The notes under the pieces are model-generated. The model worked only from the letters and a program-made list of their open reading frames with translations, ran no database searches and was not told the origin of the DNA. A program made the translations under genes and the position numbers. Positions 2,861-27,142 of a stretch of 64,000 bases of DNA are shown in pieces. Position 1 is the stretch's first letter; the number at the start of each line of letters is the position of its first letter. Location of the stretch: the NCBI RefSeq assembly GCF_029490015.1, contig NZ_CP120468.1:1550001-1614000 (forward strand). Direction: 5' to 3'. Source of the stretch: Halobaculum limi. Its GTDB lineage: Archaea > Halobacteriota > Halobacteria > Halobacteriales > Haloferacaceae.

Positions 2861-2928
2861 GACTCTATGAGGAATGTGACGTACAACATTGTGGACAAGT
2901 ACTGACGTATTTGTTGCAAATTTCGCCT

Positions 2929-8900: not shown

Positions 8901-11463
8901 GGAGGGCAATCTCGATCTCGTTGTTGGTCGGTCCACTGATGACGATGCGTATCTCGAAGAGCGGTACTCCTCTTCGAGTTCCACTGATGATGAGCAACTC
9001 GCGTTTACCGCCCAGGCGAACGCGACCTACTACATCAAAGTCGTGGGCAGAGATGCCTCGACAAACGCCTCGTACACGCTCTCGATTGATCGAGTCACCG
9101 CTGCGGAGACTGATGCATCTGAGCCCAACTGGGACCCCGCATCTGCAGCCCAAATCACAGAAGGGCGCTATGACCGTGAGCTCACGACCGGCGATACTGA
9201 CTGGTATGCGATTGACCTCAATGCCGGTGACACGCTCGCCGTCATCACGCGGTTCAGCAACGATGCAGGCAATCTTGATCTCACTGTCCGGACTAATCGC
9301 GATGACGACGACTACCTCGAGTACGTTGAAGGCGCCTCGAGTAACTCTGATAACGAGCAGGTCGCATTCACTGCTCGCCACAACGGCACCTACTATATCC
9401 ATATCGACGGCCGCGATCGCGACACGACGAACGCGCCGTACACGCTCATTGCCGACCGCGTCACGCCTGATGAAACAGACGCTGGTGAGCCGACGTGGAA
9501 CGCAGGATCGGCCGCGCCGATTACTGAAGGCAGCGGGACGTATGAGATAACGCGCGGTGACACCGACTGGTACGAAATCTCGCTCAATGCCGGTGATACG
9601 GTCAACATCACTGCGTTCTTCGACAACAGTGCTGGAAATCTCGATATGGAGGTGCGTGCGAATACTGATGATGACGACTACCTTGAGTACATCCGCGGTT
9701 CGAATTCAAACTCGGATAACGAGCAACTCGCATTCACAGCTCGTCACAACACCTCCTACTACATCCATATCGATGGGCGGAATCAGTACACGACAGCCGC
9801 CCGGTACACACTCGATGTTGATCGTGTCGAGCCGGATGAGACGGATGGCTCTGAGCCACAGTGGGACCGTGAGTCGGCAGCCACGATCACAGAGGGCAGA
9901 TACGACTTCGAGTTCCCTGCAGGCGACACAGACTGGTATGCGATTTCGTTGAATGCCGGCGACTCAGTCAACATCACGGCACTGTTCAACAACAGCCAGG
10001 GCAATTTGGATATCGAGGTTCGCCACGACGATGATGACGATCGCTATCTCGAATACGTAGAGAGCTCGTCGACGGAGTCCGACAACGAGCAACTCGCGTT
10101 CACGGCGCGGCAAGATGGCGTCTACTACATCCACGTCGATGGCCGGGACCAAGACCGGACGGCAACGAACTACACTCTCGACGTTGACCGCCTCACGCCA
10201 TCGGAGAACGACCCCTCCGAGCCGACATACGGCACGAGCTCTGCCGACCCGGTTGAGCCAGGGGCTTACAATCGGACACTCGTTCACGGCGACGTTGACT
10301 GGTACGTGATTGGCCTGTCTGAGGGAGAACAACTCAACACCTCCATCCTATTCGATGATAGTGTTGGGAATCTCGACCTTGAGGTCCGTGCTGACGACGA
10401 TGATGACGGATACATCGAGTACATTGACGCCTCAGACAGCTACACCGATGATGAGCAGCTGACGATCACTGCTGACACCACTGGGGTCTACTACATCAAG
10501 GTTGACGGCCGAGATGACGACACAACCGCTGCGCCGTATCAACTCCGTGTGGACCGCAGTGGTGGGCCAGCCCCGCTTGATCTTGATATCGAGAGCCGAA
10601 AATTACCCAATGGCTCTGTGGATATCTCTGTCGTCGTCACGAACACGAAGTCCACGACCGCCACCGACGTCATTGTTGATGGCGCACAAATCGGTGGGAA
10701 TTGGCGTGTCGTCAATAACAGTTCCGAGGGTGGTGTCTGGGGCGCAGACATCACGTGGCAATGGGAATCGATTGCAAGCGGAGAGTCGAAACGGGCAACG
10801 CTCGTGCTCGCGCCTCGAGACAGTGCGCGACGGACGCCTCGATTCGCCACCTTCGAGGCACGCAATTCGACAGCCCGCCTTGACACAGCGGTGACCTCGT
10901 TGTGGCTCATTAACCGCTCACAGAGAGCGTTCAATGCCGATGCGGAGTTCACCATCACGCCAGACACGCCCGTTGCCGGTGAACAGGTGCAGTTCGATGC
11001 AAGTCCATCGACTGGTAACTCGACAATCGTCGCGTACAGATGGGACCTTGACAACGACGGTGCCGTCGATGCGACAGGGCCGACAGCTGCTCGCACATTC
11101 ACCAGCGGCGGGGATTACTTGGTCACAGTCTCAATCGAGACGGAGCGGGGAGCTACAGATCAAATTACAAAACGCCTCACCGTCGCTGCAAACGAATCTG
11201 ACTCCGATAACGGAACGTCGGCTCCGCCTGCACTCCCCGGGTTTGCGGCGCCAACTGACCCGGATGGTGATGGCTATTACGAAGACGTCAATGGTGATGG
11301 CAGGTTCACCATTGCCGACATTCAAACGCTGTTCACCAATCTGAACAGCTCAGCGGTTGCTGAGACACCTTCGGGCTATGACTTCAATGATGACGGCACG
11401 ATCGATATCGTGGACGTCCAACGGCTCTACGTTGAGCTAGTCCCACCTGAAGACTCAAAGTAA
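2929..11463 (+). CDS. Giant secreted protein: 16 PPC-like repeats, three PKD-like domains, C-terminal dockerin
   Basis: The protein has 2,844 residues from ATG 2929; an in-frame TTG at 2911 would add six residues before the signal peptide and is less likely. A Sec-type signal peptide occupies about residues 1-36. A long Thr/Ser/Pro linker (about 75-185) probably forms an O-glycosylated stalk. There are then 16 copies of a ~122-residue PPC-like (bacterial pre-peptidase C-terminal) domain, recognisable by GDTDWY, GNLDL and an Asp-rich DxDxDxYxEY loop that could bind calcium. They fall in blocks of 6, 5 and 5, each closed by a CARDB/NEW3-like domain (SSEGGQWSSD motif) and a PKD-like domain. The C-terminus carries two dockerin-type calcium loops (DVNGDGRFTIADIQ and DFNDDGTIDIVDVQ). 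There is no protease domain and no membrane anchor. The likely role is an extracellular scaffold or adhesin, possibly docked onto another protein. Confidence 0.88.
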   Translation: MSDQDSSSSIAWTQKVAVVLITVLVASSPVVGAVSAGQATTDSDSSLSIPLLGADSGEWLGGLETDSTAQTATSTPGPNETTTPRTTTSTPPPSETATPSATSTPTSTPTSTPASTPTSTPTSTPTSTPTTTPSSNSTSTPTSTPTSTSTPESTSTPTSTPDPTNNSTTTAGETNSTTNESTSTAQQTAETLAAKNISEGQIEGELADGEVHVYQIDLDAGDTLNVTLLFENAAGNLDLVVGRNTDSDAYLEQQREYSRSDTDNESVALTARANDTFTIRVSGRTETTNNSYTLDVNRVTPDETDRKEPNWNPASASTVTEGRYNLNITTGDTDWHKIDLDAGDTLTVITRFSNAAGNLDLSIHRDTDGDGYYERLEDSHSNTDNEQVAFTARANASYYINIKGRDQYSTRAAYTLVLDRVTPNETAATEPNWNPESAAHITEGTYADREITRGDTDWYAINLSAGDTVNISAIFSDEIGNLDLEVRRDRDSDTYYEYIEGTSSNSDNEQVAFTARANDTYYIHIEGRNQYTTAATYDLIVNRTTPDETDSDEPNWNAQSAAPITEGQYEREFLTGDTDWYALSLNAGDTVNISALFNNSQGNLDLTVRANTDDDQYLEYVEGASTNSDNEQVAFTARQNTTYYIHIDGREQYSTSADYTLAIDRVTPNETDATEPNWNTKSATPLSEGRYNLEFTQGDDDWYAVDLNAGDTLNLSVLFEQSDGNLDLSVRSDTDGDGYLEYVEDSSTNSDNEQVAFTALHSGTYYVHIDGRDQYTTAAPYTLVVDRVTPDENDPAEPTFSRASAAPLPASGTTFNLTRGDVDWYVIGVRAGEELTISAGFDHSVGDLEMDVYSNTDQDGDLDYVDSAQTNTDDESLSLGVSETGFYYVRVYGDDDDTTATPYTLTTSSTGSEPPVNLSVTREELPNGRLNISVVVTNTRASSADQVTVDLAQIGGDWTIESRSSEGGQWSSDFSWQWASLAGGESKRASIIIDKRTDQRPSPRVATVTVSNSSANTDAEVVSLWRENTTTTGDELTVEFDWEPTSPTTADSITFTGNASTTANASDISYAWDLDSDGLAEATGTSATRSFPLAGEFPVTLMVRDGNGNTNRTTKFVSVSPAGNLDEEPNDLQEDSTNVIEGRYNREITSGDVDWYAINLSAGTTVNISTLFDTDTGDLSLVVGRNTDNDEYLEERYRSYTDTDNEQLAFTATANATYYIRVEGERDTSTAPYTLSIDRVTPAETDASEPNWDPESATKLTEGRYDRELTVGDTDWYAINLSAGDTLTAIARFSNSAGNLDLTVRRDTDGDQYYEYIEGASSNSDNERVAFTATQNGTYYVHIDGRNRDTTSALYTLVLNRVTPDENDASEPTWDSDSAAEVTEGRYNRTITAGDVDWYAVDLNAGDTVNISVLFDNNVGNLDFVVRSNHDNDDYLEYIEGASSNSDNEQVAFTARHNGTYYINIEGRHQYTTQAPYTLAIDRVTPNETDATEPQWDLDSATTVTEGRYDLEFTQGDTDWYAIRLDAGDTVDIRALFEDSEGNLDLTVRHNRDDDDYVEYLEDSTTNTDNEQLAFTAKQSGVYYIHVDGRNQYTTETPYTLDIDRVTPSENDASEPTYNRDSAAVITDGTISRNLTRGDVDYYVVGLAANEQLSLDVLFDNSRGNLNVELRGNTDDDEYVEYIDRASSNSDNESLSYRAERAGVYYIKVTGRDDDTTAAPYRLRLNTSDETPPVDVEATTKQLDSGNLNLTITVTNTQSSATSDVTVDGSQIGGNWQIESHSSEGGQWSSDISWQWDSLAAGETRQATVILSPRSQALSTPRFAVISAQNSSATTDVEAASLWVGNRSDLTSLEATFDWQPQPPAPGESLTLNATVTSSSASVTAYRWDVDSDGYIEATGKTASTSFPMQGMFPVELAVENADNQTARVTKFVTVGDANRDAVASNEQQSDATPLLEGRYRGSITADDTDWYAVNLAAGQTVNISTRFSNQEGNLDLVVGRSTDDDAYLEERYSSSSSTDDEQLAFTAQANATYYIKVVGRDASTNASYTLSIDRVTAAETDASEPNWDPASAAQITEGRYDRELTTGDTDWYAIDLNAGDTLAVITRFSNDAGNLDLTVRTNRDDDDYLEYVEGASSNSDNEQVAFTARHNGTYYIHIDGRDRDTTNAPYTLIADRVTPDETDAGEPTWNAGSAAPITEGSGTYEITRGDTDWYEISLNAGDTVNITAFFDNSAGNLDMEVRANTDDDDYLEYIRGSNSNSDNEQLAFTARHNTSYYIHIDGRNQYTTAARYTLDVDRVEPDETDGSEPQWDRESAATITEGRYDFEFPAGDTDWYAISLNAGDSVNITALFNNSQGNLDIEVRHDDDDDRYLEYVESSSTESDNEQLAFTARQDGVYYIHVDGRDQDRTATNYTLDVDRLTPSENDPSEPTYGTSSADPVEPGAYNRTLVHGDVDWYVIGLSEGEQLNTSILFDDSVGNLDLEVRADDDDDGYIEYIDASDSYTDDEQLTITADTTGVYYIKVDGRDDDTTAAPYQLRVDRSGGPAPLDLDIESRKLPNGSVDISVVVTNTKSTTATDVIVDGAQIGGNWRVVNNSSEGGVWGADITWQWESIASGESKRATLVLAPRDSARRTPRFATFEARNSTARLDTAVTSLWLINRSQRAFNADAEFTITPDTPVAGEQVQFDASPSTGNSTIVAYRWDLDNDGAVDATGPTAARTFTSGGDYLVTVSIETERGATDQITKRLTVAANESDSDNGTSAPPALPGFAAPTDPDGDGYYEDVNGDGRFTIADIQTLFTNLNSSAVAETPSGYDFNDDGTIDIVDVQRLYVELVPPEDSK
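3535..11196 (+). repeat. Higher-order coding repeat: three blocks of PPC repeats plus spacer and PKD domains
   Basis: GD-DWY motifs recur near 3553, 3919, 4290, 4654, 5023, 5386, then 6380, 6742, 7109, 7472, 7838, then 8828, 9191, 9554, 9924 and 10290. The period is about 366 bases within a block, with ~990 bases across each block junction. The block period is about 2.45 kb (unit 2 of block 2 to unit 2 of block 3). Units keep their identity by position: first units share GRNTD/GRSTD and LEERYxS, second units share a TRFSN-like segment, last units share a GVxWY-VIG-like core. This implies duplication of whole five-unit blocks, with one extra unit in block 1. Confidence 0.85.
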
Positions 11464-11617: not shown

Positions 11618-13672
11618 GTGCGATCGAGTGTTTGCGTGGTTGTTGTCTTCCTCTGCTGTAGTCTTGTGCTCCCTGTGATAGCTCCAACATCCGCGGCGAC
11701 TGCGGCTGATATCACCGTTGTCGATGGGAGTGTTACTCCTAATTCTGTGAGTACAGGCGGGAGTGTGCTGATCACAGTCAGTGTCGAGAATACTGGTGAT
11801 ACCTCAGGGACCAAGGACATCCGCATCACCGCGAGTGGCTCGCAGGTTGCGACGCGGAGCGTCACTGTCGATGCTGGCTCGACCAAAACTATTGACACGA
11901 CAGTGAGCTTCGGGACTGCCCGCTCATATCTAATTCGAGCGAATGGTGTCCGACTCGGGACTGTCGAGGTGACTGAGGGAAGTACCGCACCAGGGACAGA
12001 CGTCATCGAAACATCTTCTGGCGCGACGATCAACATTGGTGAAGCCCGAATTGGACAGCAAGTGACCGTGGGCACTGGCCAAGCAGTTACGCAGGGCAGC
12101 ACTGGGCTCACAGGGCTTGAGATGGATTTAGGTGACAGTACTGGTGGCTTTCGCGTCGAGGTGACGCCACCGCAGGCGAGCCCGCCCGCAGGTCGCCCAG
12201 CAGTTGATGAAGCCCGTGACGGCGCTCGCGGGCTGTTCTACTTCGAAGCGACTCCTCTGGGAAGTGAGGTCCCCGTATTCAACGGTGTGACGTACAAATT
12301 CTCCGTTGCGACACCGGACTTGCCAGACGGCGTCACGCCCGAGCAGGTCGTTCTCTTACGATATAACACAGATGAGGAGCGCTGGGCCGAGCGACCCACA
12401 ACGTACCTCGGTAACGAGGAGTACGAAGCGCAATCACCAGGGTTTTCATCATATGCAATCGGCGTTAGGGTTCTGGAGCCGACATTTTCGATCCAAGAGA
12501 CAGGTATTACTACGCGTGAACCCGCGGTTGGTGAAGAGACAACTGTAGAAGCGACCATCGCCAACACCGGTGACGCGAGTGGGACGTTCACCGCAAACCT
12601 GACTGTCAACGGTGCGGTTCTGGATGAACAGTCGGTCGAACTCAGTCCCGGCGAATCACAGACGGTCGAGTTCACTGTGAGCTTCGATGAGACAGGAGCG
12701 TACGACGTCGCCGTCAGCGGCCAGGCAGCCGCTGTCATTGAGGTAGTCGAAGCTCAAGCCCCATCAGAACGCGAATCAGTTACTGAGGAATCAGAAACAC
12801 AGGTAGCGGTATCTACTGAGACTCCCCTGCACCTTGTTGAACGGACTATCGTAGGCGTTGGAATCTTTGGAGTTGTCTTGGGTGCGATCTACTTCCGCAG
12901 CCGCCGCGAGGATGATCTTGACGATACGTCTGGTGATGCAGTGACAGGAACTGCTGATACAGATAGCCGCCTCGACGCCGTCGACGATCTCGTGAGCGAT
13001 GCTGAGGCTGCCCGCGCGAACGGGAACTTCGATACCGCTGTGGAAACCTACGATGAAGTATTGGAGGAGTATACCGCGATCCGTGAGACGCTCCCAGCCG
13101 ATGATGACCAGAGTGACGAGGTCGAAACGGCAGTCACGGCTGCGCAAACCGCCCGGAGTGAGGTTGCGACATTGGCGACGACGAAAGAAGACGTCGAGGA
13201 GACGCTTGCAGCTGCCGAACGGCAGTTCCTCGAGGGAATCATTGCCCACGTGCAAGGAGAGTCGGTGCTCGCGAAAACACGCTATCGGAGTGCCCGGAGT
13301 CGCTTCGAAGAGAGCACTGATCTGCTCTCGAATGTTGATGCAACTGAGGTGCTTGAGACTGTCTCAGTGACGCCAGAGACGCAGGCGAGCCTCTCACAAC
13401 TCCCGGAGTCGCTTGAGTCGCATCCAGATATCTCAGCTAAGTTGTTGGAGACACTCGCGGAGACCGATGTGACCACACCCGCAGACCTTGCTGATAGCGA
13501 CCTTGACTTGGAAGAACAGTTCACAGCTGTGGAAGCTGACGACGACGAGCTGCTTGCTACACTGACCGCACTCTCGTGGTGGCACGAACCAGACGAGGAG
13601 AAAGAATGGACGCTCGAAGAGATTGAGCGGCGAATCGACCAAGCTGGTCAAGGGCGGCGCGCGTGCTTGTGA
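11618..13672 (+). CDS. Single-pass surface protein with PGF-pre-PGF ectodomain and large helical cytoplasmic tail
   Basis: The protein has 684 residues from GTG 11618, which opens directly into a signal peptide (about 1-29). Domains in order: CARDB-like (31-118), PGF-pre-PGF type (127-283), CARDB-like (288-376), an acidic linker, one membrane helix (about 409-426), then about 258 residues predicted in the cytoplasm. The tail is acidic and helical with a TPR-like segment (EAARANGNFDTAVETYDEV, near 475) and ends in a Trp-containing region. The ectodomain is a close paralogue of the end of the protein at 1-2628, but only this copy has a large internal tail. It converges on the FtsZ-like/GTPase operon. 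By inference, it could couple the extracellular matrix to an internal machine. No enzymatic motif is seen. Confidence 0.82.
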   Translation: MRSSVCVVVVFLCCSLVLPVIAPTSAATAADITVVDGSVTPNSVSTGGSVLITVSVENTGDTSGTKDIRITASGSQVATRSVTVDAGSTKTIDTTVSFGTARSYLIRANGVRLGTVEVTEGSTAPGTDVIETSSGATINIGEARIGQQVTVGTGQAVTQGSTGLTGLEMDLGDSTGGFRVEVTPPQASPPAGRPAVDEARDGARGLFYFEATPLGSEVPVFNGVTYKFSVATPDLPDGVTPEQVVLLRYNTDEERWAERPTTYLGNEEYEAQSPGFSSYAIGVRVLEPTFSIQETGITTREPAVGEETTVEATIANTGDASGTFTANLTVNGAVLDEQSVELSPGESQTVEFTVSFDETGAYDVAVSGQAAAVIEVVEAQAPSERESVTEESETQVAVSTETPLHLVERTIVGVGIFGVVLGAIYFRSRREDDLDDTSGDAVTGTADTDSRLDAVDDLVSDAEAARANGNFDTAVETYDEVLEEYTAIRETLPADDDQSDEVETAVTAAQTARSEVATLATTKEDVEETLAAAERQFLEGIIAHVQGESVLAKTRYRSARSRFEESTDLLSNVDATEVLETVSVTPETQASLSQLPESLESHPDISAKLLETLAETDVTTPADLADSDLDLEEQFTAVEADDDELLATLTALSWWHEPDEEKEWTLEEIERRIDQAGQGRRACL

Positions 13673-13764: not shown

Positions 13765-14931
13765 TCAGATCGGCAGGGCGTCAGGGAAGAGAATGAATGC
13801 GAGTGAACCGCCCACGAGGAGCAACCCAGCCAGGACCATCACAATCGCGAGTATCGTTCCTTGGTCGGCAGGAATGACACCGCTGGAACTGCCCGAGCTA
13901 TTAAACGAGTCTCCGAGTGAGCCCTCTTCAGGGCTGCCGAAGCTCCCACTACTGCTTTGAGAGGTGCTTGTTCCGCTTGTAGCTGACCCGGTCGTCGACG
14001 ATTGTGCTGTGGAAGTCGACCCCGGCGTCTTGAGCGTCGGCACTTGCTGTGTGATCTTCTGGCGGATTTCACCATCCGAAAGGCCGTGTCCTTTCGAGAG
14101 GCCTTCAACCGCTTCACGAATCTCTGTGACGGCCTGCTGCACCCCAGAGGGGTACATCGAGACTGTCGACGCTGAGTCGGTCTGTGCACGTCCGGTTTGG
14201 AGTGTGGGAACTTCGCCGAACACGACAGACCGGATCTCATCATCATCCAATCCGTGCGTCCGTGAGAGTTCGTTCACCGAACTGCGGACCGTGTTCACCG
14301 CCTCAAACACGTTCGACTCACGCGCAGACTCTTGGGCAGTTGACCACTGCTCAGCCGTCTCACCGAGCGGCGTCACACCACGGCCCTTCCCGGGGACGAC
14401 CACGAAATCGTACGTCGAGATCGAACTCGACTCAATCGAATCTGTGATCGCGGCTGTCGTGTAATTGGAGACGAACACGTTCAGTAAGCCCACAGCGTTG
14501 TCTTCATCGGCAACACCGAGTCGCGGGCGCCGTCCCTGTGAGAGGAGGTCCGAGACAATGTCGTGATCTACCTCGGTGCCTGGAACCTCATACTCCCCAT
14601 TACGAAGCACTTGATAGAGGTTCATCTCGCTGCTTGAGTTATCAATGGTATACCCCCAGTCACCCTCGATCGTCTCTTCGAGCGCATTCAACAGTTCACT
14701 GAGGTACTGATTATCTGAGCGTGTCTCAAAGCGCGCGTAGAACTGCTCTGAGCGCGCATTCTCGGACTCCTTGGCTCTGAAGAATACCGTGATGGTGAGC
14801 TGTCTGCCTGTCTCGATGGCGAATCGCACCCCGCCATAGAACAGGTCTTTGATTGATTCGTCGGTCTCGGCAGTAGCACTGCCATCCGCGTAGCGATTCC
14901 CCGTCGTGTCGTATACTGTGAGCGTTGACAT
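13765..14931 (-). CDS. Tail-anchored protein of the FtsZ-like/GTPase operon
   Basis: The protein has 388 residues and no signal peptide. The N-terminal ~180 residues look like a mixed alpha/beta cytoplasmic domain with no motif I recognise. Two copies of a ~33-residue helical motif follow (about 214-246 and 269-301), each with a VxxLSxxHGLxDxEIR core and ending VPTLxT. Next is a Ser/Thr/Gly-rich linker (about 302-352) and one C-terminal membrane helix (about 358-383), giving a tail-anchored topology. It is the last gene of the operon; its ATG is 3 bases after the GTPase stop codon, so the two are probably co-translated. The duplicated motif may be a docking element for the GTPase or the tubulin-like protein (inference). 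I do not recognise the family; it is not an obvious von Willebrand A protein. Confidence 0.75.
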   Translation of the reverse strand: MSTLTVYDTTGNRYADGSATAETDESIKDLFYGGVRFAIETGRQLTITVFFRAKESENARSEQFYARFETRSDNQYLSELLNALEETIEGDWGYTIDNSSSEMNLYQVLRNGEYEVPGTEVDHDIVSDLLSQGRRPRLGVADEDNAVGLLNVFVSNYTTAAITDSIESSSISTYDFVVVPGKGRGVTPLGETAEQWSTAQESARESNVFEAVNTVRSSVNELSRTHGLDDDEIRSVVFGEVPTLQTGRAQTDSASTVSMYPSGVQQAVTEIREAVEGLSKGHGLSDGEIRQKITQQVPTLKTPGSTSTAQSSTTGSATSGTSTSQSSSGSFGSPEEGSLGDSFNSSGSSSGVIPADQGTILAIVMVLAGLLLVGGSLAFILFPDALPI

Positions 14932-14934
14932 CGT

Positions 14935-16377
14935 TTACCTCAGCTTTTTGAGTAGTTCATCGAACCCGAAGCGGTTCGTGTTGCCGTTACGGTCGCGCAG
15001 TGGGACCCGTTCGCCATCGTCGGTGACTTTGGTCTGGTAGTACACCGGATGGATCTTCGCCCCGGACGTGTCCTGCACCAGCGTTCGCACTGCCTGACTG
15101 TTCTCCCGGAGTGTCTCGTTGGTGAACTCGCGGAAGTCATCGAAGTACTGGTGCGCCTCAAGCGACTGCTGCTCGCGGAACTGGTCAGCGAGGATGTCCG
15201 CTTTCGTTGCGACGAGAATGATGTCCTTCCCAGAGGCAACGTTGAGGATGTCGAAGTACGGCTCGATGCCGAGCTTCTCGTTGTTGTGATATCGCTCAAC
15301 GTCCACGAGAAGGACGATGGTGTCTGCCCCTTGGACACGCTCTGCAAGCCGCTGGAGCGTTGTGTCGTCGACCTGCTGGTCAGGGTTCATCAACACGTCT
15401 GGAAGTCGCTCAAGATACTCACCCGCGTAATCGAGGCTGGACACCCCGATGTTCTTCGGGAAGACCGTTCCGTCGATGAACTGGAAGCTGAGGTCTTCGA
15501 TGTCCTGTGCGCCTGTGGAGTCAACGTTCCACCCAGCTTCCGAATCTGCGGCGTCGAGTGTCCCCACAAGGTCCATCAGGTCACTGCTCGGGTTGAGTGG
15601 CGTGTCAGAGTCGCGGCTTTCCGCGTCTTCGAGCGCCGCGAGGTACGCTCCGACGAGGAACAGCGACTTCCCCGAGCCACGCGGCCCGAGGACGAAGAAC
15701 TGCTCATCGGAGTCGTACTTCACGAATCGGCCGAGCGTGACGACGAACACCCCGCTCATCAGTAGGTTGGTGAAGATACCCGAGGTATCCACCGAAAGCG
15801 AGGGTGTAACCGCGTGCAACACCAGCCCCTGCTGACTCACGGTGAACACTTCGGGATACTGAATATGGTACTCGAGGAGCCCAACGACGACAACCAGCGT
15901 CAATACGTAATACAGCAGAAGCGCAGAGCGACGGAACTCACGTGCCTCCGCCGTCTGCACCTCAGTCAGCTTTCTGCCGCCACCAAGCAAGACACCGATG
16001 ACGACACCTGCGGCAACCCACCCGTAGTTCTGGCCAAGCCCGAGATTCGGGAGGAACAGCCCGATTGATGACAGGGCAGCGAGCGCGGTTGCCGTACCAA
16101 CCCACAGCAGAATCCCCTGAACGCGCTTTTTCGGGTCGAGCGTCAGCAGGACCAACAATCCGAGGAACGTCCCAAACGCGAATGAGGCGAACTGTGCCAG
16201 CGTGATCGACAGGATGGGATCCAGCGAGATGATGATCGGCCGGATGAAATGTGAGTCTCGCCACGCCTCACCGAGGGTGAGGAATAACGGGCCGGCGACG
16301 GCAATCATCACGACGAAATAGATCAGCAGCTTGATCTTCTCGCCGTGATTTTCAAGTGTTTCTGTGAGGCCAGCCAT
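14935..16377 (-). CDS. Polytopic membrane protein with cytoplasmic TRAFAC-like GTPase domain
   Basis: The protein has 480 residues. Hydrophobic segments lie at about 15-37, 56-80, 88-108, 118-132, 150-170 and 200-217. A P-loop GTPase domain follows: G1 GPRGSGKS (231-238), a DYAG G3-like motif (316-319), a hydrophobic strand ending LLVDVERY, and a G4-like TKAD (391-394; the usual N is T). The domain is expected on the cytoplasmic face. The ATG overlaps the stop codon of the FtsZ-like gene by one base (TAATG), which indicates translational coupling. Pairing of an FtsZ/tubulin-like protein with a distinct GTPase is the hallmark of the FtsZl context described for bacteria and archaea. A role in membrane remodelling is inferred from that context only. 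Confidence 0.82.
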   Translation of the reverse strand: MAGLTETLENHGEKIKLLIYFVVMIAVAGPLFLTLGEAWRDSHFIRPIIISLDPILSITLAQFASFAFGTFLGLLVLLTLDPKKRVQGILLWVGTATALAALSSIGLFLPNLGLGQNYGWVAAGVVIGVLLGGGRKLTEVQTAEAREFRRSALLLYYVLTLVVVVGLLEYHIQYPEVFTVSQQGLVLHAVTPSLSVDTSGIFTNLLMSGVFVVTLGRFVKYDSDEQFFVLGPRGSGKSLFLVGAYLAALEDAESRDSDTPLNPSSDLMDLVGTLDAADSEAGWNVDSTGAQDIEDLSFQFIDGTVFPKNIGVSSLDYAGEYLERLPDVLMNPDQQVDDTTLQRLAERVQGADTIVLLVDVERYHNNEKLGIEPYFDILNVASGKDIILVATKADILADQFREQQSLEAHQYFDDFREFTNETLRENSQAVRTLVQDTSGAKIHPVYYQTKVTDDGERVPLRDRNGNTNRFGFDELLKKLR

Positions 16378-19300
16378 TACCGATCCCGCCCTCCGTCGGT
16401 CAGATCGCCGGTTGGCCCGTCATACTCAATTGCTTCATCAGGAGTGTCGTTCCCCTCTTTCGTGGGAACGACCTCAATGTACTCCTGCAGAAGGTCCTCA
16501 CGGATTGACGCCTCATCGCGCAGGAAGAACTCTATGTCATCCGGGTTCTCAAGGTTGAGCACGTCATTCCGGCGGACGTAGAAGCCCTCTTCGAGCCCGT
16601 ACGTGTGGTGAACGAGGATATCGAGTTCGTCGCTGTTCAGCTTCGCACGGTAGCCCTCGCGGTAGCCATCAGCCTCTGCCTCCGCACGGAGGTTGTCGAG
16701 GAAGATGCCGCCGATGAACACACCAAGCCCAATGTCCCAGTTGCCGCCTGCATCAACCGGGTAGGAGGCGTAATTCTCCTCACCGGGGCCGAGATTGTAC
16801 GCCCCTGCGAAGATTTCCTGAAGCCGGGCAGCCTCTTCACCAATCTGATCGATGGCTTGGCTGACTGCACCAACTGCGATCTGCATATCCTCGTAGCGTG
16901 CCCGCGAGCTACTGATACGGCGTTTGCGCAGCCCGGAGTACTTTGAATTGTGGATATTTCGCGCCAGCTCTTCAAGCGAAGAGCGCAGCCGTTGGCGCTC
17001 GGCTTCGTCATCGAAGATTCCGCTTTCGTCGATATCCGAGTCATCGCGAATCTGCAGAATATCGTTCGGGCGGACCGTCTTCATGTAGCGGTACTCCTCT
17101 TCTTCAGTGGAGACCGCAGACGACCGCTCTTCACCGTAGGAACTCCGCCGCCGATTGTACTCTGCGTGGGAGTTGACGAACGTCTCCCGACGGTTGTTGA
17201 TCTCCTCGAATAGCGACACAGTTGCCGAGAACAGCTCTGCACGTCCGCGTGCGTCTTCAAGATCGGCTTCGAGGTCGTCTTTGCGCTCGGAAATGTCTCC
17301 GGTGTCAACGATGACATCGGTGAGTGCATCCTCGACAATTTGCTTCACGTCAGCCAGCGAGCGGCCTCGGTCAAGTTGCGTGCCGACCTTCTGCATCGCA
17401 CTATCAACCTGCGGGCCGTTCTCATCGAACTGCTCGCGCAGCTCCATAATAATCTGGTCACGGCGCTGTTCTTCCTCGCGTTTGACGCGGTCGATGAGCG
17501 ACGTCCCATCGTACTCGACCTCGATACTCAAGTTGCTCCCCGCACTCGAGATGGCGAACACGCCCTTGTCATCGAGCTGGTTGCGCTTCGTCCGGTAGTT
17601 CTTGCGCGCCTGCTGGCGTTCCTCTTCAGCCGACGACTCCCAGGGGAGAATCTTCTCGACAGTCCCCTCCTCAGAGTTCATTTTCAGGAAGGACTTCTTC
17701 GCTTCCGCAAGGTCTCTGACCGACGACTGGATGTCCTGCTCTTCAGAGGAGATGTCGATCCCAATCGCTTCCAGTTCATCAGAGAGGGTATTGAGCGCCT
17801 GCGTGACGTCCTGACTCGAGATATTGTCGATTTCCTCGGGGTCAGTCGCGTTATCGATATTCATCGAGAAGTTGCCGATCGCCGTCTCTAGCGACCCAAC
17901 ACGCGACTCAATCGAAATGTCCTGACACGCCTGGAAGTCTTCGAAGTCCATCCGGACCGCCCGCTCCCACTCATCAGCGCGGCGTTCGATCTCTTGGCGC
18001 TGCGTGTCTCGCTTTTCTTCGAGTTCCTCGCGAACTTCTGCGAGGTCGCTCTCGAGACGCTCCATCCGCTCTTCAGCGTCTTCGCGCTTCGCCTCAAGCT
18101 GGTTGAGACGAACGCCAGCGTTGATCCCTTCGTCATCAAGCGCTAGCAGGTAGCTGAGCGTACTCTGAATCCGTGGTGCATCGACCCGACGCAGGTCCTC
18201 GAGCAGCTCCTTGCGTCGGCCAAGATTCCGGATGTCACTTCGAATGATGTCTGCGAGCTCTTTGTCGATGCTATCGACGAACTGCTCACTCTCGCCGCCG
18301 AGGCTGGCCGTACCTGCACGAATCGAGCTGGAGACGATCTCAACCTGTTCGGCGACGTCTTCCGTCTCGTTGCGTGCCTCACCGATGATCTCCCGGAAGA
18401 TGGAGATCGACTCATAGCCGAGTTCCTCGAAGAGGTCGACCTCTAACAGCGACTCAAGCGAGTCGAAGCGGTTTTTGAGATCGGAACGATCAGAGTCGTG
18501 AAGCTCGCCCGTCTCGCCATCATCGAAGTGGCGTGCGAAGAAGCGGTCGAGTTCGCCGTAGATTTCCTCCTCGGCTTCGAGTGCATCCTGCTTTTCGGAG
18601 AGCAGGTCGGTCATCTTCGTCTTCGCGCCTTTGATCGCGTCGACGTTGTATCGCAGCACCTGCGGAATGCCGATAATGAACGGCGCATACGACGGCATAT
18701 CCGCGAACGGGTCTTCCATCCCCGTCTTGTTGAAATACGAGACGATGAGATAGACAGCTGCACGGTCGAACTCAACGAGTGCGTCAGAACTCTGGAGAAT
18801 GTTTGCCTTCTTCCCGCCGAAGTCGGTCGGGTCAATCGGCATCAACACGCGGTCTTTGAAGACATCTTCACCCTGCAGCGAGAGATACTCCAACTCAGAG
18901 AGTGCTGCGTGTGCGTTCGCGTTTTCAGCGTCTCCTTCGGCGTCGTTCGGGAGCACACCGAACAGCGTGATTTCTGCGGTTCGTTGGGTACGCTTGAGAT
19001 GTTGGACGAGGTCGATAAACATGCCAGACCCACTCCCACCACCAAGTCCTGCGATGACGGCGACCTTTCCTCGGCTTGGGAGGTCGATCTGCGTTCGGAC
19101 CTCGTCATCTTCGGCATACGCCTTGTAGTAGAGACCCTTACCCAGCCCTCGTTTGCGGACCACACCTGTGGCGAAATTGAGATTCTCGTTGATGTACTCT
19201 GGTCGGAGCCACCAGTTCTCGCGGTCCATCCCAACGCCGTCCGCTATCCGTGGAATGACCGACTCGCCGATCAAGTCATTCTGGTCGTGCAGTTGGATAT

Positions 19301-19583
19301 TCCGCGTGAGCGGGAGGTAGTCGATAGTGATTTCTCCCGGCCGACCACTACTCTCCTCGCGCAACCGTTCTTTTGTTTCCCTGATGTCTGCCCGGATTTG
19401 CTTAATCCGTTCTTCGTCATCGTTGATTTCGTCCTCAGCCGTGTCAACCAACGTGACTGTCAGCGACTTCGGATTCGGCCGGGGTTCAAGAATCTCTTCT
19501 TGAACCCAGTCAGCCTCCAACAATTCGTACGTGATCGCCTTTCCCGCGCCTCCGATGGCGTAGATTCGTTCGGGAAGATTCAT
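16377..19583 (-). CDS. Large FtsZ/tubulin-superfamily (FtsZ-like, FtsZl-type) protein
   Basis: The protein has 1,068 residues from ATG 19583; a TTG at 19592 is an upstream alternative. The N-terminal third reads as a divergent tubulin/FtsZ GTPase fold. It has an IYAIGGAGKA nucleotide-binding start (about 7-16) and the tubulin signature GGGSGSGM (181-188) after a VAVIAGL strand. The remaining ~700 residues are acidic and strongly coiled-coil forming (for example about 480-560). No membrane segment is evident. At nearly three times the length of FtsZ, it does not match FtsZ1, FtsZ2 or CetZ. It is the first gene of a three-gene operon with the membrane GTPase and the tail-anchored protein. The likely role is a GTP-dependent polymer or scaffold acting at the membrane (inference). 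Confidence 0.83.
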   Translation of the reverse strand: MNLPERIYAIGGAGKAITYELLEADWVQEEILEPRPNPKSLTVTLVDTAEDEINDDEERIKQIRADIRETKERLREESSGRPGEITIDYLPLTRNIQLHDQNDLIGESVIPRIADGVGMDRENWWLRPEYINENLNFATGVVRKRGLGKGLYYKAYAEDDEVRTQIDLPSRGKVAVIAGLGGGSGSGMFIDLVQHLKRTQRTAEITLFGVLPNDAEGDAENANAHAALSELEYLSLQGEDVFKDRVLMPIDPTDFGGKKANILQSSDALVEFDRAAVYLIVSYFNKTGMEDPFADMPSYAPFIIGIPQVLRYNVDAIKGAKTKMTDLLSEKQDALEAEEEIYGELDRFFARHFDDGETGELHDSDRSDLKNRFDSLESLLEVDLFEELGYESISIFREIIGEARNETEDVAEQVEIVSSSIRAGTASLGGESEQFVDSIDKELADIIRSDIRNLGRRKELLEDLRRVDAPRIQSTLSYLLALDDEGINAGVRLNQLEAKREDAEERMERLESDLAEVREELEEKRDTQRQEIERRADEWERAVRMDFEDFQACQDISIESRVGSLETAIGNFSMNIDNATDPEEIDNISSQDVTQALNTLSDELEAIGIDISSEEQDIQSSVRDLAEAKKSFLKMNSEEGTVEKILPWESSAEEERQQARKNYRTKRNQLDDKGVFAISSAGSNLSIEVEYDGTSLIDRVKREEEQRRDQIIMELREQFDENGPQVDSAMQKVGTQLDRGRSLADVKQIVEDALTDVIVDTGDISERKDDLEADLEDARGRAELFSATVSLFEEINNRRETFVNSHAEYNRRRSSYGEERSSAVSTEEEEYRYMKTVRPNDILQIRDDSDIDESGIFDDEAERQRLRSSLEELARNIHNSKYSGLRKRRISSSRARYEDMQIAVGAVSQAIDQIGEEAARLQEIFAGAYNLGPGEENYASYPVDAGGNWDIGLGVFIGGIFLDNLRAEAEADGYREGYRAKLNSDELDILVHHTYGLEEGFYVRRNDVLNLENPDDIEFFLRDEASIREDLLQEYIEVVPTKEGNDTPDEAIEYDGPTGDLTDGGRDR

Positions 19584-19933: not shown

Positions 19934-20707
19934 CTACGGATCCAGGGGTAATCGTGCTCGGGCCTGAGGTGCGATCGAGATCGTTGTTTCACCGATGCTG
20001 ACGCCGTCACCAACGAGCGTCCGAACCAACATCGCGACGCCTTCGCGGAAGTCTCGCCCGCGGTTCGGCATCTGCAGTGTGAGAATGTCGCTGTGGGTGT
20101 GTTCGGCCCCGCGCTCGATGACCCACACGAGGCCACACGTCTGCTGTGTCGCCAGGGAGCACTTGCCGAACAGTGTAGGGAGTGAGTCAACCTGTGAGAA
20201 ATCACGCGGCACGCCAATCGCTTGGAGCGCACGCCCGAGTACCGATGCATCCTCGCTGGGGACGATTTCAGTGGGTCGCTCGGAATCCGCCTCGTGTCTA
20301 GTACGGTGGCCAACACCGAGTGTTGAGAGGGCGTGTGTGATCAACAGTCGGGTAGCGCTGGTCTCAGACGTCCACGCTGGGACGTGATTAGCGTTGATGC
20401 CGCCACACGCGTATGTCGCCGCCGCGAGTACAGCAAATGCGTCACCCGTCGCCGTGTTCGGCTCGGTATCGATCCAGTCCTGCTCACGCGCAGTCTCGAC
20501 ACCGCGGGCCGCATCAGGCTTTCCACCGTTGATCCACGCACGTACTCGGCTTGGTGGGAGGTCAAGGGTGTTTCCGACGCGAACCCGTCCGTGATCAGGA
20601 TTGTGGCTCGCGTACTCGCGAACGCGCTCGAAGTCTGCGAGCTGATCGGTGGGGTCAGCGTAGCTTTCGGGATTATACGTTCGTGCGAGGCTATCCGGTG
20701 TGAGCAT
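19934..20707 (-). CDS. HTH-containing protein linked to a pilin (copy 1)
   Basis: The protein has 257 residues from ATG 20707, which is 24 bases after the pilin stop codon and on the same strand, so the pair is probably co-transcribed. The N-terminus has a helix-turn-helix-like segment, VGNTLDLPPSRVRAWI followed by NGGKPD, typical of sequence-specific DNA-binding proteins of haloarchaea. The C-terminal ~170 residues contain an AFAVLAAATYACGGI segment and a second hydrophobic helix (CGLVWVIERGA). These faintly recall the paired LAGLIDADG-like folds found in WhiA-type regulators; that resemblance is inference. The paralogue at 25848-26639 sits in the same position beside two pilins, so a role in regulating pilin expression is plausible. 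Confidence 0.72.
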   Translation of the reverse strand: MLTPDSLARTYNPESYADPTDQLADFERVREYASHNPDHGRVRVGNTLDLPPSRVRAWINGGKPDAARGVETAREQDWIDTEPNTATGDAFAVLAAATYACGGINANHVPAWTSETSATRLLITHALSTLGVGHRTRHEADSERPTEIVPSEDASVLGRALQAIGVPRDFSQVDSLPTLFGKCSLATQQTCGLVWVIERGAEHTHSDILTLQMPNRGRDFREGVAMLVRTLVGDGVSIGETTISIAPQARARLPLDP

Positions 20708-20731
20708 CGAAAAATCGCGTTCGGGTTTTGT

Positions 20732-21205
20732 TTACGAGGGAATCTGATCTTCCGCGAGTGCTTGTGAACTCCCGCCGTTCTGTGAGGTCCAGATTACACG
20801 GACAGTCTCACCAGCGCTAGGCAATTCTGAGGAACTAACAGAAGCGTTCGTGATATTGAGCGAACTACCTGCAGTGAATGGGAATTGGGAGTCGGCAGCG
20901 AAGACGGATACTCCTGGTGCTGTCAGCGACAGGTTTCCGGTGTTGTCTGATGTGAGTGAGTCTCCACCCGTATGAGTCGCTGTAACATTGTACTCAATGG
21001 CAGCATCACCCGTAGTATTCGCTTGTTCTTCGAAATCGAAGTCGAAGTTTGCGTTAGGTGCGGTCTGTTGCACACTGTTTCCGAGGCCGAGGACGAACGA
21101 GCCGATGACAGCGGCGAGGATCACAGTGATTGCGACCATGAGGATCACGCCGATGACAGGTGACACGGCACGGTCGTCGCCAGTGAATAGGTTTGAAATT
21201 TGCAT
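20732..21205 (-). CDS. Type IV pilin (archaeal Pilin_N, H-domain)
   Basis: The protein has 157 residues from ATG 21205; a GTG at 21220 would add five. The N-terminus is a class III prepilin signal: a short charged leader with DDRAVSPV, then the hydrophobic H-domain [20 protein letters not shown], which in archaeal pilins is processed by PibD and forms the filament core. A conserved [18 protein letters not shown] segment follows, then a variable beta-rich exposed domain. The C-terminal stretch (VRVIWTSQNGGSSQ) is shared with the pilins at 26687-27136 and 27143-27559. It is followed by the HTH gene. It probably serves as an adhesion pilus subunit. Confidence 0.9.
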   Translation of the reverse strand: MQISNLFTGDDRAVSPVIGVILMVAITVILAAVIGSFVLGLGNSVQQTAPNANFDFDFEEQANTTGDAAIEYNVTATHTGGDSLTSDNTGNLSLTAPGVSVFAADSQFPFTAGSSLNITNASVSSSELPSAGETVRVIWTSQNGGSSQALAEDQIPS

Positions 21206-21561
21206 TGGTTTGTCTGACACAGCAGCGAGTTACCCCCGCAGGGCTGTGTTGTCGGGGCCACGAGACGAGTCAACTAAAATGTACTGTCCAAGTATCAATT
21301 ATGGAAGTGATTGACAGACAGCAAAACGAAACAGCGTTGGGTGCTCCGATAGCGCCCTTTCGTGTAGTCTTCCCCGATCACAATCGCACAACAACCGAAA
21401 GAAATCCGTTAACAGCCGATCTACAGACTACACTACTCAACGTCAGAGCATACGAGATACACTATGCCTGTTCGTAGGGGGTGGGACATCCCTGCCTCCA
21501 TACGACAGAATCGGCGAAACCGTCACGCTTGTAAGGAACTGCCGATGTGACTACCATACGA
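21206..21561. other. Intergenic region between divergent pilin and DUF4350-MoxR operons
   Basis: This stretch separates the leftward pilin gene from the rightward membrane/DUF4350/MoxR operon and must hold both promoters. I see no strong TATA match and no convincing gene. The short reading frames across 21301-21477 lack haloarchaeal coding character. Confidence 0.35.
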
Positions 21562-21838: not shown

Positions 21839-22957
21839 ATGCGGCTGTGGCCTGATTCGTGGGGGTACCCCCACGCGCTGTTGATTGCGCTTGTTGTCGT
21901 GATGGTCGGCTCTGTTGTCTTTGCAGGCGCAACCTCTGCGGCGGCGTTCGGATCATACAACCCATCGTGGGATGGCGCATCACAACTTCGCGGGATTGCC
22001 ACAGACACGGGCGGCGACTCGACGATTCTGACAGAGACGGCTGCCTATGAAACGGTCGAGCCGAACGGAACGGTCGCGGTGGTTCTCTCCCCAGATCGAC
22101 CGTACACGGAGTCACAGCGAGCAGCACTGAGATCGTTTGTCCGTGATGGGGGGACACTCGTCGTCGCCGAAGACTACGGGCCAATCGGGAACTCCATCCT
22201 CAGCGCCGTTGGTGCGAGCGTCCGTGTAAGCGGGCAGCCGCTCCGTGACGAGCGCGAGTACTATCGCGGCCCTGCACTCCCTGTGGCGCCCTCGACTGCT
22301 ACACATCCAGTCACGGACGGTGTTGACGAACTCACGTTGAATCACGGCACCGTGCTTGTCCCCGCACAGAACACGAACGCATCGACGGTCGCCGAGACGA
22401 ACGCGACGGCCGTCGTGAACTCCTCTGGCTTTTCGTATCTCGATAGGAATCGTAACGAGCAGTTGGACGACTCCGAGACGTTGGCTGCCCGACCAGTCGT
22501 CGCCGTCGAGTCCATTGGCGAGGGACAGGTGATCGCGGTTGCAGACCCGAGTGTGTTCATCAACTCGATGTTAGAACGTGAGGGGAACCAACAGTTCGCG
22601 ACGAATATCATCGCAGCCCACGACCGAATCCTGCTTGATTACTCACACACCGAGGGGCAGCCACCGCTGATTGCAGCGCTGTTAGCACTGCAGAAGTCCT
22701 CGCTGTTGACGGTCACCATTGCCACGCTCGTTGTGGGAAGCATTGGTCTGTGGACCCGGCGACCAGACATCACCCTCCCAGGTGGCAGTACTGTCTTTGG
22801 CGGCGACGCTGGGCCACCGCAGGCAGGCGCCACAGATGACGGGAGCGCTGTGGTAGCGTATCTTCGCGAGCAACATCCAGACTGGAGTGAACGTCGCCTT
22901 CGCCGATTGATGACAGCCGTTTTCACGGGGCAACCCGAGGACAGCGACAATGAGTGA
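21839..22957 (+). CDS. DUF4350 domain-containing membrane protein
   Basis: The protein has 372 residues. An N-terminal signal-anchor segment (about 12-35) precedes a DUF4350-type, glutamine-amidotransferase-like alpha/beta domain, with VAVVLSPDRPYTESQ and SFVRDGGTLVVAEDYG in the first half. A membrane helix follows near residue 285-300, then a cytoplasmic tail. The last 8 bases overlap the MoxR start, indicating tight coupling. DUF4350 proteins are common companions of MoxR/DUF58 loci; the family has no proven catalytic function. Confidence 0.83.
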   Translation: MRLWPDSWGYPHALLIALVVVMVGSVVFAGATSAAAFGSYNPSWDGASQLRGIATDTGGDSTILTETAAYETVEPNGTVAVVLSPDRPYTESQRAALRSFVRDGGTLVVAEDYGPIGNSILSAVGASVRVSGQPLRDEREYYRGPALPVAPSTATHPVTDGVDELTLNHGTVLVPAQNTNASTVAETNATAVVNSSGFSYLDRNRNEQLDDSETLAARPVVAVESIGEGQVIAVADPSVFINSMLEREGNQQFATNIIAAHDRILLDYSHTEGQPPLIAALLALQKSSLLTVTIATLVVGSIGLWTRRPDITLPGGSTVFGGDAGPPQAGATDDGSAVVAYLREQHPDWSERRLRRLMTAVFTGQPEDSDNE

Positions 22958-23936
22958 CTCGACGACGGATCCAGCCACCCTCTATGAGACCATTCAAGAA
23001 GAGGCTGGCACGGTCCTCATCGGGAATGACGATGCCATCGAGCGCATCACGATTGCCTTGCTGACGCGCGGGCACGTGCTGTTAGAGGGCGTCCCCGGCG
23101 TCGCGAAGACGACGATCGCGAATCTGTTTGCGCGAACAACGGGGCTGGATTTCACCCGCATCCAGATGACGCCCGACCTCCTCCCTGCAGACATCACTGG
23201 ATCACACATCTACCGCGAAAGTGTGGGTGAGTTCGAACTCAACAAGGGCCCGATCTTCTCGAATGTCGTCGTCGCCGACGAGATCAATCGCGCGACGCCG
23301 AAGACGCAGTCAGCGCTGTTGGAGGCGATGCAAGAGCGGACCGTCTCTATCGAAGGTGACACCCTTTCGTTGCCAGAGCCGTTCATCGTCATCGCGACGC
23401 AGAACCCCATCGAGATGGAAGGCGTGTTCGAACTCCCGGAAGCACAGCGTGACCGCTTCCAATTCAAACTCCATATTGATCTCCCCGACCGCGTCGACGA
23501 GCGGGAGTTGCTCGACCGGTTCGACAGCAATCCAGACCTCGGTCCAGACCAAGTTAAGCAGGTGATTGACACGGCTGCACTGACCGAGGCACGCGACATC
23601 GTCGAGGAGGTCCACGTCGCCGACCCGGTTCGCGAATACATCCTCGATATTGTCGGCCGCACGCGCGAGTCGCCTGACGTACAGTTTGGCGCCTCACCTC
23701 GGGCGACGCTCGCGTTCCTCAACGCTGGGAAGGCGCGCGCTGCGATTCACGGCCGTGACTACGTGATTCCTGACGACATCAAAGCGCTCGCCGAGCCAAT
23801 CCTGATCCACCGGCTCCTGTTGTCGACTGAAGCAGAAATTGGTGACCAGTCGACTGAGGAGGTCGTCGAGCGGATCGTTGGCTCCGTCGATGTGCCCAGT
23901 GGTGTGGATGAAGCTGCTGCACCGACGACTGACTGA
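22950..23936 (+). CDS. MoxR-family AAA+ ATPase
   Basis: The protein has 328 residues. It has Walker A GVPGVAKT (47-54), Walker B VVVADEIN (106-113), a sensor-type TQNP motif and the C-terminal MoxR lid, with the family signatures TPKTQSALLEAMQE and FELPEAQRDRF. MoxR ATPases act as chaperone-like remodelers for proteins with vWA or MIDAS domains, usually the neighbouring DUF58 protein. Here the DUF58 gene is about 5.5 kb away (29434-30945), separated by an ATPase/DUF234 gene and a pilin module, so the locus looks interrupted or rearranged. Confidence 0.93.
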   Translation: MSDSTTDPATLYETIQEEAGTVLIGNDDAIERITIALLTRGHVLLEGVPGVAKTTIANLFARTTGLDFTRIQMTPDLLPADITGSHIYRESVGEFELNKGPIFSNVVVADEINRATPKTQSALLEAMQERTVSIEGDTLSLPEPFIVIATQNPIEMEGVFELPEAQRDRFQFKLHIDLPDRVDERELLDRFDSNPDLGPDQVKQVIDTAALTEARDIVEEVHVADPVREYILDIVGRTRESPDVQFGASPRATLAFLNAGKARAAIHGRDYVIPDDIKALAEPILIHRLLLSTEAEIGDQSTEEVVERIVGSVDVPSGVDEAAAPTTD

Positions 23937-25847: not shown

Positions 25848-26639
25848 TTATCGGATCACGCTGGGGAGCTTCCGCGCAGCGTCAGCACTAATGACTACAT
25901 TTTGTTCAGTGGCACTAATTGATCCATCAACAATCTCGCGGATGAGTGAGGCAACATCTGAACGATAGAGATCTCCCCGGGAACGCGCCTGAATCACCTG
26001 CGTCTCTTTGTCACTATGAGCAGTTGCACGCTCACAAGCCCACAGAAGTGCAAGCGTCCGGCGAGTTCCGGTTGACGCTTGTTTGAACCAGCTGGGTAGC
26101 GCTTCGACCATAGAAAAATCTCCGTGAGGGACACCGAGGCTCAGCAATACGCGACCTAAGACGCTCGCATCAGTAGCTGGAATGGTCTCTGTCGGACGCT
26201 CAGGGGCGTCGCTATGTCGGTCCATAGATCTAATCCCAACAACCTCGAGGGCGTGGAGTATGAGTTGACTTGTGATCTCCGTACTTGGGTTCCATACGGG
26301 GACGATACGGTCGGTGTCGATGCTTCCGCAGGTGTAGATACCTGCGGCAAGTACGGCAAAGGCGTCACCAATTGAATCTTGAAGATCTGCGGTGAGCCAA
26401 CCGTGGTCCCGAGCTGTCTCAACAGCGTGAACTGAATCGGGCTTACCACCGTTGATCCAACCTCGCACTCGACTTGGCGGAAGTTCGAGAGCCTTCCCGA
26501 CGCGTGTCCGACCGTAATCTGGATGCTTTGACGCGAACTCCATCACGCAATCGTAATCCGCCAGCTGGTCTGCCGGGTCAGGATACGACGGTGGATTGTA
26601 TGTTCTCGCGAGCGCCGCGGCGTCAATCAAGGGACTCAT
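25848..26639 (-). CDS. HTH-containing protein linked to pilins (copy 2)
   Basis: The protein has 263 residues from ATG 26639 (TTG 26654 is less likely). It is paralogous to 19934-20707 over its whole length. Shared blocks are ARTYNPPSYPDPADQLADY, VGKALELPPSRVRGWINGGKPD, GDAFAVLAAGIYTCGSI, ASVLGRVLLSLGVP and a C-terminal ALLWACERA segment. The N-terminal part is a helix-turn-helix; the C-terminal part is unassigned. It lies 47 bases downstream of the second pilin on the same strand, repeating the pilin-then-HTH order of copy 1. Regulation of surface-fibre genes is the simplest inference. Confidence 0.72.
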   Translation of the reverse strand: MSPLIDAAALARTYNPPSYPDPADQLADYDCVMEFASKHPDYGRTRVGKALELPPSRVRGWINGGKPDSVHAVETARDHGWLTADLQDSIGDAFAVLAAGIYTCGSIDTDRIVPVWNPSTEITSQLILHALEVVGIRSMDRHSDAPERPTETIPATDASVLGRVLLSLGVPHGDFSMVEALPSWFKQASTGTRRTLALLWACERATAHSDKETQVIQARSRGDLYRSDVASLIREIVDGSISATEQNVVISADAARKLPSVIR

Positions 26640-26686
26640 CGGATCTTTGGGCAAGAAGTGAAAAACAGGTAGATTAGGTGGAGCTG

Positions 26687-27136
26687 TTAGTTCGGAGCCT
26701 GCTCGCTGGCGAGTGTTTGCGACGACCCACCGTTTTGTGCGGTCCAGATGACGCGGACCGTATCACCTGCAGCGACGGCTTGACTACTGGCTGCTGTTTC
26801 GTTCGTCAAAATGAGCTGATCACCCGCTGCAAATGGGAAGCTCGTGGAACTGTTTGTCCCACTTGGTGCAGTCAAATTCACCGTCTGCGTATTTTGACTA
26901 TTGAGCGTGTCGCCACCTTCGTGCGTGGCAGTCACATTGTACGTTCCTGTCGTTCCGACTTCTTCGAAGTCGAAATCGAAATTCGCGTTCGGTGCGGTCT
27001 GCTGCACGGAGTTACCGAGGCCGAGGACGAACGAGCCGATGACGGCCGCGAGGATCACGGTGATCGCGACCATAAGTATCACTCCAATCACAGGAGAGAC
27101 AGCCCGATCGTCGGCGAATAGTTGCTGGAAATTCAT
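26687..27136 (-). CDS. Type IV pilin (archaeal Pilin_N, H-domain), second of tandem pair
   Basis: The protein has 149 residues. The class III leader [16 protein letters not shown] precedes the H-domain [19 protein letters not shown], then [18 protein letters not shown], a variable exposed domain and a C-terminal [17 protein letters not shown]. It starts 6 bases after the stop codon of the neighbouring pilin (27143-27559). The first ~150 bases of the two genes are nearly identical, which points to a recent tandem duplication or gene conversion. Confidence 0.9.
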
Positions 27137-27142
27137 AGTTGG

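Follow-up and report, generated by a model that had tools for sequence, protein, structure and literature searches.

The FtsZl1 family was founded on Huta_2051 of Halorhabdus utahensis, a 1051-residue protein with an FtsZ-like domain, a coiled coil and a helical C-terminus (PMC2875224). The founding locus, Huta_2050-2056, also has three genes for kinases and three called 'hypothetical' (Makarova and Koonin 2010, PMC2875224), and the diverged GTPases linked to archaeal FtsZl1 proteins are membrane-associated (PMC2875224). Both bacteria and archaea have FtsZl1 proteins, which form one branch of the tubulin superfamily, and in the literature that we found their function is predicted from gene context alone; our search of that literature returned no experimental study of the family. 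Later work regarded Tubulin_2 proteins as a divergent side branch and left them out (PMC9871819). Tubulin homologs have also been described in GTPase-centred conflict systems (DO-GTPase / GAP1-N2; Kaur et al. 2020, PMC7159879).

We analysed a 64,000-nucleotide stretch (the window) of the 3.05-Mb main contig of Halobaculum limi, whose genome comprises 3.48 Mb on two contigs. The window encodes a three-gene FtsZl1 cassette, whose products we call Z, G and T (Table 1). A first-pass annotation of the window had described three tightly coupled genes, and the coupling is as close as it claimed: the Z and G genes overlap by one base (TAATG) and 3 bases separate G from T. An alternative TTG start lies 9 bases upstream of the Z ATG, from which the 1068 residues are counted.

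The same annotation suggested that this might be an undescribed archaeal variant. That suggestion falls: FtsZl1 was itself defined from a coiled-coil haloarchaeal protein, Huta_2051, and a genome in our sample taken as Halorhabdus utahensis (G075, locus L053) has the same three-gene order, with consecutive genes for Z (1052 residues), G (482 residues) and T (423 residues) flanked by kinase-domain genes. The Z proteins of the window and of this genome are about 46% identical over nearly their full length. Judged by this alignment, and with G075 taken as H. utahensis (the Huta_2051 locus tag itself was not seen), the window locus is an ortholog of the founding FtsZl1 locus. The two have in common the N-terminal FtsZ-like domain, the coiled coil, the helical C-terminal domain, the adjacent membrane-associated GTPase and the gene order. 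By contrast, the window's genome gave no match to the linked kinase subfamily, its T has a duplicated motif and no ectodomain, and its cassette is adjoined by a receptor-like protein with a CARDB ectodomain and, in the cytoplasm, a helical domain (H) some 235 residues long. Already known, then, are the family, its haloarchaeal founding member and the link to a membrane-associated GTPase. Beyond the 2010 text go the H-domain fourth partner, a possible, faintly longin/roadblock-like fold in T, and arm-less FtsZl1 paralogs; what deserves further work is the H-domain partner and the way in which T is built.

Table 1. Features of the FtsZl1 cassette and its receptor-like neighbour (window positions).
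Feature	Position	Strand	Evidence
FtsZl1 (Tubulin_2 family) protein Z, 1068 aa	16377..19583	-	Tubulin_2 40 bits; tubulin fold in residues 1-305; neighbours shared by 27 close full-length relatives
GTP-binding T4 signature GGGSGSG, Z residues 181-187	19023..19043	-	invariant G in 30 homologs
Long helical/coiled-coil arm of Z, residues about 317-824	17112..18635	-	helical in model; missing from 560-562-aa homologs
Conserved C-terminal domain of Z, residues about 825-1049	16437..17111	-	kept in arm-less homologs; invariant residues
Polytopic membrane GTPase G, 480 aa	14935..16377	-	six hydrophobic segments; P-loop, DxxG and TKxD invariant in 21 homologs; directly downstream of FtsZl1 in close clade
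P-loop GPRGSGKS of G, residues 231-238	15664..15687	-	G231 and S235-G236-K237-S238 invariant in 21 homologs
Third cassette protein T, 388 aa: cytoplasmic N-terminal domain, linker, C-terminal membrane helix	13765..14931	-	positional homologs in all close loci but one and in one genome from beyond the order (G415)
Conserved N-terminal domain of T, residues 1-199	14335..14931	-	invariant residues; 1-97 longin/roadblock-like in model (weak)
Helical motif copy 1 of T, residues 210-244	14200..14304	-	17 of 35 residues the same as in copy 2
Helical motif copy 2 of T, residues 266-300	14032..14136	-	motif-bearing relatives carry one copy
Membrane helix of T, residues 363-381	13789..13845	-	most relatives run on into a beta-sandwich ectodomain here
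Receptor-like partner, 684 aa: signal peptide, CARDB ectodomain, membrane helix, cytoplasmic H domain	11618..13672	+	convergent with T
H domain, residues 448-682 of the 684-aa protein	12959..13663	+	E 1e-80 to family profile

Z is a nucleotide-binding protein of the tubulin fold, as computed from its family, its fold and its signature loop; the nucleotide is presumably GTP. Its match to Pfam Tubulin_2 lies above the cut-off of 27 bits, and all 30 homologs scanned also exceed that cut-off. Residues G181, G182, G183, G185 and G187 of the GGGSGSG loop are the invariant glycines, and a profile built from the 30 homologs matched FtsZ, TubZ, RepX and tubulin in the PDB over residues 145-227. Our structure predictions were built from three sequences (the window and two related loci) and are weak models; that of Z, from a 3-row alignment, is of low confidence overall (mean pLDDT 46). 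The top structural alignments of its residues 1-305 are to tubulin, FtsZ, CetZ and PhuZ chains (Z-score up to 12.6), and the best 50 matches listed all belong to the tubulin/FtsZ superfamily. The first-pass assignment to the FtsZl family and the tubulin superfamily stands, as does the tubulin fold in the first 300 residues, on which that annotation had staked its reading in advance.

Beyond this fold and the GGGxGxG loop, Z departs from FtsZ, CetZ, TubZ and tubulin in its long helical arm and in a C-terminal domain of another kind. Pfam reported neither FtsZ_C nor Tubulin_C on Z, and FtsZ_C was absent also across the 30 homologs. In the model, at low confidence, long helices span residues 315-816 and the chain is mostly helical after residue 848. 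Two homologs of 560 and 562 residues (loci L074 and L075) keep the regions equivalent to residues 2-319 and 819-1049, so that the arm is a separable insertion between two conserved parts. Invariant residues of the C-terminal domain are S908, G959, D963, Y978, H993, G1000 and R1005. The genes of these short paralogs, without the coiled-coil arm, lie at L074:3931-5613 and L075:8155-9843, and no G or T homolog was recognised flanking either of them.

The second protein, G, had been described as a polytopic membrane protein with a TRAFAC-like GTPase domain, and it is just that. Its six hydrophobic segments occupy residues 17-219 and are followed by the features of a TRAFAC-type P-loop GTPase: a Walker A motif, a DxxG motif within DYAGE (316-320) and an [NT]KxD motif, TKAD (391-394). 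Besides the P-loop residues, D316-E320, K392 and D394 are invariant in the 21 homologs. Pfam placed the window's G in no family above cut-off; the nearest, both sub-threshold, were ATP_bind_1 and DO-GTPase (PF19993, 14.7 bits against a cut-off of 27). Sub-threshold similarity to DO-GTPase2 and DO-GTPase1 appears in 4 and 1 of the 21 GTPases respectively (best in relatives, E 0.0014), and a search of the PDB with the G profile gave no match.

The third protein, T, is where the first-pass annotation needs most amendment. It had described a tail-anchored protein with a duplicated helical motif, and both descriptions are right for the window copy. The sole hydrophobic helix ends seven residues before the C-terminus and there is no signal peptide; the identity between the two motif copies was not equalled in 20,000 shuffles at that offset. 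Neither description extends to the relatives, most of which have an ectodomain after the membrane helix and the helical motif in one copy or none. Many of these extracellular extensions match CarboxypepD_reg, SpaA, PEGA or CARDB beta-sandwiches, and N-glycosylation-like sequons are present in them. In the window, the distance from the end of T (13765) to the convergent gene (13672) is too short for an exterior domain. T is thus, by its predicted topology and that of its homologs, a membrane protein with a swappable exterior.

The N-terminal part of T is conserved, with Y7, D8, G11, F51, R52, R60, Q63 and Y65 invariant. Residues 1-100 modelled alone reach a pLDDT of about 80, and in residues 1-97 strands and helices follow in the order seen in longin/roadblock domains. 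The structural matches to this segment (VIA list) are headed by Mon1-Ccz1, the Vamp7 longin domain, Ragulator and other longin/roadblock chains, all weak (Z-score at most 4.6). Foldseek found no significant match to the T model; the T profile matched nothing meaningful in the PDB, and the vWA fold was not among the matches listed. A longin/roadblock-like fold in the N-terminus of T is possible, as a faint resemblance in the model. Longin/roadblock domains often act as platforms for small GTPases (PMC10933270). T resembles such platforms (MglB, Ragulator, Mon1-Ccz1) in secondary-structure order, in the weak alignment and in having its gene beside that of a GTPase; it differs from them in being membrane-anchored and, in relatives, in bearing an ectodomain, and what likeness there is comes from structure, with no sequence similarity seen.

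The cassette is patchily distributed and strongly conserved where it occurs. Full-length close relatives of Z are found in about 30 of 392 Halobacteriales genomes, and a named Haloarcula species has a relative (L033); only one of the 7 sampled genomes of the window's own genus has the cassette. A neighbourhood survey bore out the expectation that the three-gene order would be kept in relatives: Z, G and T follow one another with gaps near zero in 27 close loci, down to about 39% identity, and G415, a genome from outside the order, has all three genes. The gene calls missed G at L036 and T at L059, where a longer ORF on the opposite strand was called instead. The distant haloarchaeal FtsZl1 loci (23-31% identity) mostly have recognisable G relatives and T homologs, some with two G-like genes or a divergent arrangement. 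Four distant loci (L066, L068, L070 and L073) encode two different G-like membrane GTPases and larger T-like proteins.

On this evidence of homology and position, T is a standing third gene of the archaeal FtsZl1 cassette. The first-pass annotation had it taking the place of a vWA protein; T homologs stand in the archaeal cassette, most of the distant haloarchaeal loci included, and we set that idea aside. The annotation was right that a vWA protein is not evident. Genes for vWA proteins are frequent but non-defining in FtsZl1 operons (most, not all, have one), and neither PF13519 nor PF00092 matched anywhere in the window's genome at E 0.001; no vWA family match was found among the scanned neighbours either. 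The bacterial FtsZl1/vWA operons likewise pair a Tubulin_2 protein with a diverged P-loop GTPase, but the archaeal GTPase is an integral-membrane protein.

A Ser/Thr kinase subfamily, also frequent and non-defining for FtsZl1, adjoins many Z relatives. We did not accept it as specific to the cassette or count it in the window's system, since the family occurs widely (115 of 392 genomes) and has no match in the window's genome at E 1e-6. In the kinase-like domains beside FtsZl1 in L035, L039, L040, L046, L050 and L053, the usual DFG reads DWG, and in several loci these chains cross the membrane and have beta-sandwich, beta-propeller or solute-binding exteriors.

The H-domain protein represents a fourth partner that recurs. 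In the window's 684-residue neighbour the CARDB match scores 55 bits and signal and membrane segments are detected. An iterated search found H-domain proteins next to the cassette at five further loci, in many cases following a PQQ beta-propeller. Strong H matches occur in 11 of the 392 Halobacteriales genomes, and all 11 have the cassette (hypergeometric probability 7e-14). Because related genomes are not independent, we also compared H and cassette within genera, using tallies made by hand: in seven genera each H-bearing genome is cassette-bearing (product probability 6e-7). An extra sample of 202 genomes from the phylum gave no strong match in any additional genome. H copies may be linked or unlinked to the cassette. 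Several lie on other contigs, and in the window's genome a copy on the second contig is fused to a beta-propeller and a PKD-like domain; these copies on other contigs argue against simple hitch-hiking. H is optional or diverged, since well over half of the cassette-bearing genomes have no strong match. We put the weak partial matches (E 3e-7 to 5e-6) in G023, G249, G253, G332 and G413 down to chance or to similarity of repeats; two of these genomes, G249 and G332, have the cassette as well. Pfam found nothing on H except one sub-threshold helix-hairpin-helix match, and H-type proteins are not named in the main text of the 2010 FtsZl1 paper (PMC2875224). At the edge of the window, a further surface protein (1-2628, +) is 65% identical in its C-terminal part to the ectodomain of the CARDB/H protein, so that these two neighbours share an exterior.

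What might such a system do? The reading that we favour, with about even confidence, is a membrane-tethered tubulin/GTPase scaffold positioned by, or positioning, cell-surface proteins. In Z, a long helical arm would be set between the tubulin fold and the conserved C-terminal domain. Given the coupling of their genes, G most likely recruits or switches Z at the cytoplasmic membrane. The cytoplasmic domain of T, carried on a single membrane helix, is a candidate regulator of or platform for G if it is indeed longin/roadblock-like, a suggestion that we make tentatively. T may thus regulate G or connect the complex with the surface; in most relatives T also has a variable beta-sandwich, predicted to lie outside the cell. 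The H proteins, in turn, may report the state of the surface to the complex or be arranged by it, and envelope organisation would be coupled to a putative cytoplasmic polymer or meshwork. As the window's T has no ectodomain, the surface link in this organism would run through other proteins.

A different role, possible though doubtful in our view, is membrane remodelling or vesicle formation, with Z and G bending or pinching the cytoplasmic membrane and the surface partners serving as cargo or anchors. This was proposed from gene context for the whole FtsZl1 family in 2010, and a reviewer of that paper questioned the inference (PMC2875224). A polytopic GTPase with single-pass partners is compatible with remodelling, but no ESCRT, dynamin or BAR domain was reported in Z, G or T, and surface-receptor partners suit coupling or signalling at least equally well.

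A bolder reading, which we think rather unlikely as a whole, puts haloarchaeal FtsZl1 at the centre of a signal-receiving chain across the membrane: surface sensors with interchangeable ectodomains (beta-propeller, CARDB, carboxypeptidase-regulatory or solute-binding) would act through shared cytoplasmic H or kinase-like domains on G and its longin-like partner, and these would govern the assembly of an armed tubulin. Such a receptor-coupled tubulin system, if real, would be, in principle, the archaeal equivalent of cytoskeletons linked to adhesion or to receptors.

Variable sensor-like domains would suit a conflict or immune-like system, in which receptor-like proteins and the GTPase sense a trigger from outside or inside the cell and polymerising FtsZl1 is the effector. 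GTPase-tubulin conflict systems are on record (PMC7159879), and like them the cassette encodes a TRAFAC-type GTPase with a tubulin homolog fused to a coiled coil. The patchy distribution (about 30 of 392 genomes, one of 7 in the genus) fits, and so does the sub-threshold DO-GTPase2/1 similarity of 4 and 1 of the 21 GTPases. We nevertheless judge this analogy unlikely to hold: the window's DO-GTPase matches are below cut-off, PADLOC has no match for Z, G or T, the genome lacks a vWA match, HSP70 and GAP1 were not reported among the scanned proteins, and the cassette has no nuclease or toxin.

Haloarchaea use FtsZ and CetZ in cell shape and division. Z shares the fold of that superfamily and might serve as a cytoskeleton of the same type, but the genome has another, shorter tubulin/FtsZ-superfamily ORF (a 401-residue open frame near C1:608,700), most sampled haloarchaea lack the cassette, and FtsZl1 has no recognised FtsZ_C or Tubulin_C domain; we consider this role quite improbable. 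A TubZ-like DNA segregation system, suggested by TubZ and RepX among the best profile and fold matches, is highly improbable for a locus on the main contig whose partners are membrane and surface proteins and in which no small DNA-binding gene recurs.

The core of archaeal FtsZl1 loci is fixed here at three genes, and a receptor-like partner tightly co-occurs with it. The H-domain partner could help to reveal the role of the FtsZl1 family.

The window holds several other gene groups around the cassette. Twice within 8 kb (19934-21220 and 25848-27577, both -) there is a module of a 257- or 268-residue protein with archaeal type IV pilin-like genes; the two module proteins are 49% identical and the 257-residue one has no Pfam match. 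After a DUF4350 gene and a MoxR AAA ATPase gene (21839-23936, +) there is neither a DUF58 nor a vWA gene; next comes an archaeal ATPase_2/DUF234 gene in convergent orientation. On the other side of the cassette, 2911-11463 (+) encodes a surface-type protein of 2,850 residues that has about 15 PPC repeats and three PKD domains and carries a dockerin at its C-terminus.
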